From an uncultured Synergistales bacterium (lineage in GTDB: Bacteria > Synergistota > Synergistia > Synergistales > Aminobacteriaceae), in NCBI GenBank assembly GCA_905233525.1, contig CAJOEW010000006.1:1-35934 (forward strand): a DNA stretch of 35,934 nucleotides. The letters are read 5' to 3'. The notes beneath the pieces were generated by a model. It was not told where the DNA came from. It saw only the letters and a list, made by a program, of their open reading frames with translations, and did no database searches. Both the position numbers and the translations under genes were made by a program. Of this stretch, positions 2,998-35,934 are shown one piece after another (within the stretch, counting starts at the first letter, position 1; the number at the start of each line of letters is the position of its first letter).

Positions 2998-4424
2998 TAT
3001 AATATGAAAGCAGAAAGCAGAAAGCAGAAAGCCATAATTTTGCCCAATTAGATTTTAAAAAATTACCATTCGCCGTCATTCAAATAATAGCTGACGTAAT
3101 TTTATATCGGTCATGTTTTTATTTACTGTCAGGTTTTAAAGGTTTTCCTGATAAATCCGGTGTGCTGTTATCCGGAATTTTAGTAATATGTTTTGCATTT
3201 AATTCGCTTTATAATTTTAAGAACCGGACTTTCTGGGACGAAGTTAAAGCCGTTTTACAATCAGCCGTTTTAATTTTGCTCGTGTCAGTCTTGTATTTAT
3301 TCGCTGATAAAATAAAATTGCCGGTGTTTTTGTTTCTTGTTAATTTATTTTTATTCGTGCCGCTTTGTTTAGCAGTCAGATATTTTTTGCGGAGGATCTT
3401 TTTTAAAGCCGGTCTTCTGTCGACTTCGATAATAATAATCGGTGCCGGTGATGCTGGAAAATTATTTGCTGATAAAGTTCATAACAATAAATTCATGGCC
3501 TGTAACGTTTTAGGATTCATTGATGATGACGAATCTAAACACGGTTTAGAAATTTCAGGCGTGAAAGTTTTAGGAGGACTCAATGATCTTGAAAATATTC
3601 AGGCAAATTTACACGCTGATGAAGCAATAATAGCAATACCTACAGCTTTACGCACGGATATAGCAAGGATTTTGAGCCGCGCTGAAGATCTTTTTAAACA
3701 GGTGCATTATATTCCGGATATGTACATGCTCACGACGTTATCAGCCTCAATCAGAAATATTAACGGAATGCCGGTCATCTCAGCTTCACAAGGTCTTTTA
3801 AATCCTGTCAACCGTTGTTTAAAAAGCATAATGGATTATTTTGGCGGAGTTGTTGCTTTAATTTTATTCTCGCCTCTTATGATATTCTCTGCCATAAAAA
3901 TAAAACTTGCTGACGGCTGTAACATATTATTTAAACATAAAAGAATTGGTGAAAATTTAAAGCCGTTCTATTTATACAAATTCCGCACAATGGTTCCTGA
4001 CGCTGAAGAGAAATTAAAAGAGATGCTCAAAAATGATGAACTCAGAAAAGAATTTGAAAGCGCTTTTAAATTCAAAAACGATCCTAGAATTACACCGATC
4101 GGGAAATTTTTACGCCGCACAAGTTTAGATGAGCTGCCGCAGCTTTTTAACGTCTTACGCGGTGAAATGAGTCTTGTCGGGCCGCGTCCAATTGTTGAAA
4201 AGGAGGTTGAATTATATTACGGTCAAACGACTGCACGTCAAATTTTTCACGTTAAACCAGGCTTAACAGGTTTTTGGCAGGTCAGCGGACGCAATGATGT
4301 TAAAGATTACAGATCGCGCATTGAATTTGATTTGTATTATATTCATAATTGGTCAGTGTGGCTTGATATAATCATAATATTGCGGACTATTAAGGCTGTT
4401 TTATCCGGTACAGGCGCGTATTAA
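2980..4424 (+). CDS. Initiating polyprenyl sugar-phosphate transferase (WbaP/ExoY type), out of frame at a 7-base repeat
   Basis: Transfers a sugar-1-phosphate from a nucleotide sugar to undecaprenyl phosphate at the inner membrane, the first step of surface polysaccharide assembly. The body (to 4424) has membrane helices, a Rossmann-like domain (IIIIGAGDAGKLFADK), and the catalytic C-terminal domain with YLYKFRTM, RRTSLDELPQL, SLVGPRP and KPGLTGFWQVSGR. The first ATG/GTG/TTG in the body frame is GTG 3162, which has no Shine-Dalgarno and cuts off a helix. The frame is open back to 3003 and encodes a membrane segment (FAVIQIIADVILY). A GGAGG-9-TTG start at 2980 is in another frame that stops at 3049. 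The repeat at 3006-3032 lies between them: one extra 7-base unit joins both into 483 residues, the usual family length. As given, the gene is off. Confidence 0.85.
3006..3032 (+). repeat. Heptanucleotide tandem repeat (GAAAGCA), 3.9 copies
   Basis: Three perfect 7-base units followed by GAAAGC. Because 7 is not a multiple of 3, each gain or loss of a unit changes the reading frame downstream. It lies nine codons after the TTG start of the sugar transferase gene, a typical place for a slipped-strand phase-variation tract. The copy number here puts the start out of frame with the body. Confidence 0.9.
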
Positions 4425-12541: not shown

Positions 12542-12570
12542 TTGACAGAAAATCACCGCGCATATAAAAT
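12542..12570 (+). promoter_or_regulatory. Promoter of the tRNA cluster
   Basis: TTGACA (12542-12547), 17 bases, TAAAAT (12565-12570), ending 16 bases before tRNA-Val. A near-consensus housekeeping promoter. Confidence 0.8.
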
Positions 12571-12586
12571 ACCCATCGTGTTTGCA

Positions 12587-12661
12587 GGGCGGATAGCTCA
12601 GCGGTAGAGCACCTGCCTTACACGCAGGACGCCACAGGTTCGAACCCTGTTTCGCCCACCA
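12587..12661 (+). tRNA. tRNA-Val (anticodon UAC)
   Basis: Cloverleaf with acceptor stem GGGCGGA/TTCGCCC, D-arm AGCTCAGCGGTAGAGC, anticodon loop CTTACAC, T-arm GGTTCGAACCC, and an encoded CCA end. Confidence 0.97.
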
Positions 12662-35738: not shown

Positions 35739-35869
35739 TTTTTCAGCTCCTGATTAAAAATTTTACGAACGTCTGAATTATACAAGCATGTTATAAGCTG
35801 TGCTAGAATATCTCTCATGAAATGCTTAGTACTAAAAATTTTTAAGAACGCGAAAATCTTAAGGAGGTC

Positions 35870-35898
35870 TTGACATGAACGACGAAACCCAGTATAAT
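35870..35898 (+). promoter_or_regulatory. Perfect-consensus promoter at the right edge
   Basis: TTGACA (35870-35875), exactly 17 bases, TATAAT (35893-35898). All twelve consensus bases match, better than any other promoter in the window. The -10 overlaps the first base of the 7-base repeat, so transcription would begin within the repeat, around 35905. An ATG with its own AAGGAGG lies inside this element (35875), so promoter and start codon readings compete. Confidence 0.6.
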
Positions 35899-35934
35899 CG
35901 CACATCGCACATCGCACATCGCCTTAATAATACC
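35875..35934 (+). CDS. 5' end of an unknown gene carrying a 7-base repeat (cut by the window)
   Basis: ATG 35875 follows AAGGAGG (35861-35867) by seven bases and reads MNDETQYNRTSHIAHRLNNT to the window end without a stop. The codons from Asn8 to about His15 are the heptanucleotide repeat. The layout (Shine-Dalgarno, start, about eight codons, repeat) is the same as that of the transferase gene at 2980, so this may be another switched gene. Identity and the frame of the body are not visible. Confidence 0.45.
   Translation, partial: MNDETQYNRTSHIAHRLNNT
35898..35922 (+). repeat. Heptanucleotide tandem repeat (TCGCACA), 3.6 copies
   Basis: Three perfect units and TCGC. Unit length equals that of the repeat at 3006-3032 but the sequence differs, so the two arose separately. 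It begins in codon 8 of the truncated gene, so unit gain or loss would shift the frame downstream. Confidence 0.9.

Follow-up and report, generated by a model that had tools for sequence, protein, structure and literature searches.

The contig analysed here most probably ends within the first codons of a phase-variable glycosyltransferase gene, in which a heptanucleotide array lying a few codons behind the start would switch the reading frame ahead of a GT8 body (we put the probability of this reading at about 0.86). The window is the entire contig C6 (35,934 nucleotides) of a 1.64 Mb, 66-contig Synergistaceae metagenome-assembled genome (MAG), and since the contig stops at position 35934, it is the assembly that truncates the gene, rather than the way in which the window was chosen. 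Judged from its sequence, the locus is of a known kind, the simple-sequence-repeat contingency locus. First, a perfect tandem array lies close to the coding start and its unit is not a multiple of three. Second, the number of copies sets whether the start and the body share a frame. Third, this number differs between homologous sites, both between paralogues and between species. What sets the locus apart is a perfect promoter consensus nested in the start of its open reading frame (ORF).

Anatomy of the locus

All features lie on the forward strand. A Shine-Dalgarno motif read from the sequence, AAGGAGG (35861-35867), has GGAG-like counterparts at the equivalent place in loci of the genus; it is followed by seven bases (TCTTGAC) and by an ATG (35875-35877) that opens a run of eight codons, start included, before the array (ATG AAC GAC GAA ACC CAG TAT AAT, or MNDETQYN, 35875-35898). 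The array itself (35897-35922) is built of the unit TCGCACA, or ATCGCAC in that register, and has a period of 7, 3.7 copies and a 100% match according to Tandem Repeats Finder. The reading frame stays open from the ATG across the array and into the first 12 bases of the body (CTT AAT AAT ACC, 35923-35934), in frame with the LNNT that begins the GT8 body of the paralogues. The initial annotation had described this succession of motif, spacer, ATG, eight codons and some 3.6 copies, which turned out to be exact to the base (3.7 with Tandem Repeats Finder), and had rightly noted that the gene runs off the window, as the end of the contig cuts off the body.

It had overlooked the promoter. A -35 box TTGACA (35870-35875) and a -10 box TATAAT (35893-35898) that adjoins the array are separated by 17 nt and match the sigma-70 consensus at 12 of 12 positions, the sole perfect match in the window; we call this nested promoter P2. 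Further upstream, the extended -10 element TGCTAGAAT (TGC TAGAAT, 35801-35809) marks a putative outer promoter P1, on the grounds of a consensus match only. Of 63 loci of the genus, 42 have an element of this type (TGnTAnnnT) ahead of the nested promoter, mostly 30-45 nt before the -35 box, the distance in the window being about 66 nt.

Paralogues in the same genome

A three-unit TCGCACA probe gave nine matches at five sites in the home genome, which hold 3.7 copies on C6, 5.7 on C9, 3.9 on C33, 5.7 on C46 and 3.7 on C58. The 5' end is nearly identical on C6, C9, C46 and C58, and in an alignment that takes in 68 of its last 80 bases, the window is 94% identical to the C9 locus. The body on C9 is a Pfam Glyco_transf_8 domain (E = 5.9e-35), and joining contigs C58 and C37 across an identical 99-base overlap yields an uninterrupted GT8 gene from the ATG across the array, in the ON phase. 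The fifth site, on C33, precedes another body (DUF6625) and is OFF. The variant 5' end of the window was found on no other contig of the bin, which left none to which the gene could be extended; C46 and C58 likewise break off in a gene of this family, and the contig that C58 connects with is C37 rather than C6. The body of the window gene is probably that of a GT8 glycosyltransferase, for which the paralogues provide a strong argument.

These paralogues lend weight to the earlier proposal that the heptamer is a reading-frame switch at the start of a gene. Their GT8 bodies have no start codon near the far side of the repeat, hence the ORF must begin before it. A body with its own start beyond the repeat, the observation that had been named as contradicting a switch, is not what they present: on C9 the first in-frame start codon after the array lies 99 nt into the body, inside the domain, and is not a usable start. 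At 3.7 copies (window and C58) the ATG and the body share a frame and the gene is ON, the phase of the window being judged by its paralogues, and at 5.7 copies (C9 and C46) they are out of frame and the gene is OFF.

The mechanism would thus be translational. The outer transcript would carry AAGGAGG and the ATG, and translation would proceed through the array into a GT8 body without a usable start of its own. Slipped-strand gain or loss of one 7-base copy would change the frame, and because each copy shifts it, the enzyme would be made in only one phase in three. The copy number found in the window would correspond to the ON phase and would add the residues RTSHIAH for every three copies. That the array slips in the cell and that the gene is expressed in this manner is what we infer from the arrangement of the frames.

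Another GT8 paralogue (L151, on C17 at about 740-790) has an ordinary start, AAAAAGGAG-N15-ATG, with neither array nor nested promoter. It suggests that a Shine-Dalgarno spacing of 15 nt occurs in this organism. This bears on one of two points that speak against a frame switch: the GGAG-to-ATG distance reaches about 15 nt in many relatives, which is long for a Shine-Dalgarno site, though the non-switched gene on C17 has an equal one. The other point is that a transcript from P2, if the promoter fires, would lack the ATG, and that a simple translational switch needs no such promoter.

Other arrays in the home genome

In the home genome we count about a dozen loci with heptamers and six with octamers, the majority of them on surface-polysaccharide genes. 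One sibling switch lies in the window, where 3.9 copies of GAAAGCA (3006-3032, forward strand) stand at the start of a polyprenyl-phosphate sugar transferase gene. The initial annotation had likened the two loci, and their layouts do agree. At its present copy number, the start before the GAAAGCA array, a TTG at 2982, and the body do not share a frame, i.e. the locus is OFF, and its nested promoter is degenerate. The octamer family ACGACAGC occurs at C2:34033, C10:3168, C16:10470, C28:7, C34:14263 and C43:11503 (loci L131, L137, L143, L266, L275 and L276), ahead of GT8 and other open reading frames. It has a conserved 5' end with a Shine-Dalgarno site, an ATG, the array and frame-switched bodies, and the nested promoter is absent from the three copies that were read.

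Heptamer arrays are far more frequent than expected by chance. Perfect period-7 arrays of at least 2.6 copies number 9 in 450 kb of the home genome, against 0.2 expected in shuffled sequence, a count somewhat enriched by the choice of C9, C27, C33, C46 and C58 for a known repeat or a GT8 gene; the arrays on C14 and C20 in this sample were found blind. About a quarter of the genome was read directly, sampled as stretches.

A rival explanation would be that the repeat is neutral or structural and encodes an N-terminal peptide, the differences in frame being assembly errors or marks of pseudogenes. The MAG was probably assembled from short reads and arrays may have been miscounted. However, the bodies are open over 300-500 codons in ON and OFF loci alike, most arrays are shorter than 50 nt and thus below the 99-base contig overlap found in the home assembly, and the same layout recurs in many separate MAGs, which leaves this explanation very improbable.

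Spread of the probable switch across the genus

We observed the same anatomy and the same frames in many relatives. The comparison used one assembly per species, the relatives being goat and deer gut MAGs that bear the names Synergistaceae or Synergistales, and either the repeat or the promoter served to find most of their loci, which means that the frequencies given here describe such loci and do not extend to all genes. The TCGCACA array is present in 13 of the 43 genomes of the genus, and arrays of the wider form CGCNNAW in 24 of the 43. In total, 89 distinct heptamer arrays were collected across the genus. Among the 75 loci that could be classified, 30 are ON and 45 are OFF, which is compatible with a random phase and one-third ON (p = 0.22). 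Copy number differs at homologous sites, not only between the paralogues of the home genome (3.7 vs 5.7) but also before homologous genes in related species, e.g. 3.7 and 8.7 copies, or 5.1 to 13.7.

The genes downstream encode mainly MBOAT acyltransferases (14), GT8 enzymes (12) and polyprenyl-phosphate sugar transferases of the Bac_transf type (9). Rarer ones include nitroreductase-like proteins, GT4, FkbM-type methyltransferases, TupA-like ATP-grasp proteins, LicD, GT2, a pyruvyl transferase and a few secreted proteins. By these assignments, the targets of the switch are mostly surface-polysaccharide enzymes.

The loci come in two forms of about equal frequency, although the assignment by script is mechanical and single entries may be wrong (C58, e.g., whose contig ends, was for that reason entered as leader OFF). 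At fused loci, the ORF begins at the ATG, crosses the array and continues as the enzyme. At leader loci, the frame past the array continues for some 15-30 codons and ends at the start of the next gene, which has its own Shine-Dalgarno site. In 27 of 36 leader loci, the read-through frame stops at a position of -8 to +10 nt relative to that start, with an ATGA or GTGA overlap in eight. The two remaining frames usually come to a stop no more than about 25 nt past the array. Stop and start are arranged as in translational coupling, in which the frame would decide whether ribosomes reach the start of the next gene; the coupling itself we infer from that geometry. Codon-position conservation of the leader leans weakly towards the ON frame, with 12 synonymous variants vs 6 and 7 in the other two.

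A promoter conserved next to the array

Every TCGCACA site of the home genome is preceded by TTGACA-N17-TAYAAT, and this motif occurs at only six sites in that genome, namely the five TCGCACA loci and one on C48. The latter (L149, about 374-409) reads GGAGG-TTGACA-17-TATAAT followed by only about 1.5 degenerate copies, and is probably a collapsed or decayed switch. A match of at least 10 of 12 consensus positions precedes 75 of the 89 arrays of the genus, vs 0.8% of random positions, a frequency that is partly biased because some arrays were found by a query or pattern that included the promoter; loci found via the repeat alone, and the blind finds on C14 and C20, present the same picture. The spacing in these 75 cases is 17 nt (69) or 18 nt (6). 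The information per position, over 63 loci with distinct spacers, is 1.85 bits in the -35 box and 1.74 in the -10 box, compared with 0.31 in the spacer and 0.11 far upstream. Conversely, 81 promoter-like sites have a Shine-Dalgarno motif ahead, and they are followed by a period-7 array in 62 cases and by a period-5 array in 8, never by a period that is a multiple of three; the other 11 have no clear array, several of them being visible remnants. Outside the genus, a search for TTGACA-17-TAYAAT with GGAG returned background only, about 14 scattered matches in 119 genomes.

Relative to the codons of the ORF, the -10 hexamer is found in each of the three phases (32, 26 and 5 loci), so it is kept as DNA and not as codons. 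Because of this conservation in three phases, and with different repeat units, we reject the view that the promoter is a by-product of coding; the nested promoter-like element is shown to be conserved as DNA. The spacer also contains a usable start: 49 of 66 distinct spacers have an ATG, vs 20.8 in shuffles. A promoter and a start codon thus both appear to be selected within the same 29 bases.

If P2 is a working promoter, its transcripts would begin inside the array, the repeat might be a 5' untranslated rheostat of transcript level, as at hmw1A/hmw2A, and the upstream ORF might go untranslated. The perfect consensus at 17 nt and the contrast between the boxes and the spacer are what one would expect of such a promoter, and the leader-type genes have Shine-Dalgarno sites of their own. 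A similar consensus, TTGACA-17-TAAAAT, stands ahead of an apparent tRNA gene in the window (12542-12660), which makes this near-perfect sigma-70 type a plausible promoter in this organism. However, a P2 transcript would begin past the ATG. It could not serve to make the products of the fused genes, which account for about half of the loci and whose bodies have no usable start past the array, and yet nearly all of these retain the promoter. Start codons are enriched in the spacers and unit lengths are never multiples of three, both of which also speak against this reading. We regard the rheostat as quite improbable; the stronger version, in which the promoter explains everything and the ORF is spurious, is ruled out for the fused loci by the lack of a usable later start.

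The preferred reading, a translational frame switch, leaves room for an additional role of P2. A second transcript tuning the output is a tentative proposal; that RNA polymerase is held at the array and raises its slippage is a rather doubtful one, and a pause site for the outer transcript is unlikely, as is any other role. Sigma-dependent pauses are widespread in E. coli (PMC7876045). A related idea, which would complement the frame switch instead of replacing it, is that P2 destabilises the array: open complexes would melt the first copies and raise slippage, the promoter being kept for its effect on mutation and not for expression. The array adjoins the -10 box regardless of the unit it is built of and of whether the period is 7 or 5, and fused genes, where the transcript of P2 would be useless, retain the promoter nearly as well as leader loci. 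That position and this retention argue for an effect on the array, and so does conservation of the -10 box in every codon phase. Arrays are also longer behind strong boxes (median 5.7 vs 3.9 copies, p = 0.008), a weak indication since the weak-box group includes decayed and unrelated arrays. On the other hand, the octamer ACGACAGC arrays reach similar lengths with no nested promoter and are switched in frame, which argues that switching itself does not require the promoter. Destabilisation is, on balance, an unlikely function of P2. Its fullest form, a portable mutator cassette of promoter plus array in which RNA polymerase raises slippage, perhaps growth-dependently, and the unit changes while the promoter is kept, seems to us about as unlikely.

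Probable turnover of the repeat unit

The initial annotation took the different units of the two loci in the window as a sign of repeated independent evolution, and the genus does not bear this out. Dozens of loci have one conserved frame, made of the Shine-Dalgarno site, TTGACA-N17-TATAAT and the array straight behind the -10 box, while the sequence of the unit changes inside it (CGCACAT, CGCACAA, CGCCCAA, CGCTCAA, CGCCTAT, CGCAGAA and others), and homologous target genes carry different units. Two arrays contain two heptamers side by side, GCGAACA/GCAAACA in L212 and TTGCTTA/TCGCTTA in L220, and look like snapshots of unit turnover. The shared frame, the series of units that differ by one step and the mixed arrays speak against an independent origin of each heptamer. 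The diversity of units is better read as turnover within an inherited cassette than as a fresh origin of each switch. In other species of the genus, pentamer arrays (CCACA, TCCAG, TCCTG and CACAT) stand directly behind the nested promoter, at L102, L105, L112, L117, L209, L213, L215 and L224.

Comparison with known systems

What is known of repeat-based phase variation comes mostly from mucosal pathogens. The nearest working analogue is neuO, the phase-variable polysialate O-acetyltransferase of E. coli K1, which has the heptanucleotide AAGACTC at the start of its coding sequence, is ON at one copy number in three, encodes a heptapeptide with every three copies, and gives an enzyme whose activity rises with the number of encoded heptads (PMC3046976). 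Both systems have a coding heptamer just after the start, one productive phase in three and a polysaccharide enzyme fused in frame (GT8 in the paralogues studied here), a likeness in the mode of working only, with no claim of kinship between the enzymes. They differ in that the array lies eight codons after the start in the window and two nucleotides after it in neuO; that neuO is one prophage gene with one unit, whereas here about a dozen loci occur in one genome and many units across the genus; and that the Synergistaceae loci have a leader-ORF version and a perfect promoter before the array.

The hmw1A and hmw2A genes of Haemophilus influenzae, which encode a surface factor, also associate 7-bp repeats with two promoter regions, P2 and P1 (PMC8262952, PMC2651432). 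In these genes a noncoding array situated between P2 and P1 has a graded effect on transcript level, whereas the Synergistaceae array follows both promoter-like sites and lies within an ORF, and its output is expected to depend on the frame. The tetranucleotide and homopolymer contingency loci of Haemophilus, Neisseria and Campylobacter (e.g. PMC2651432, PMC6321876) likewise carry their repeat within or close to the 5' coding region of genes for surface structures, and switch frame by slipped-strand mispairing. The present loci differ from them in the unit of 7, sometimes 5 or 8, in the conserved nested promoter, and in belonging to another phylum and to the ruminant gut.

The literature searched holds no description of phase variation in Synergistaceae or Synergistota, an absence that is no proof of novelty, and a wider search on phase variation had only other bacteria among the matches listed. 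A nested promoter in a contingency locus has apparently not been described so far.

The presence of many switch loci on surface-polysaccharide genes in a gut genus suggests phage or host pressure on the coat. The leader version would allow one portable switch to precede any gene and leave its protein unchanged. Finally, the conserved promoter before the arrays bears on the old question of whether transcription is a means of setting the mutation rate of contingency loci.
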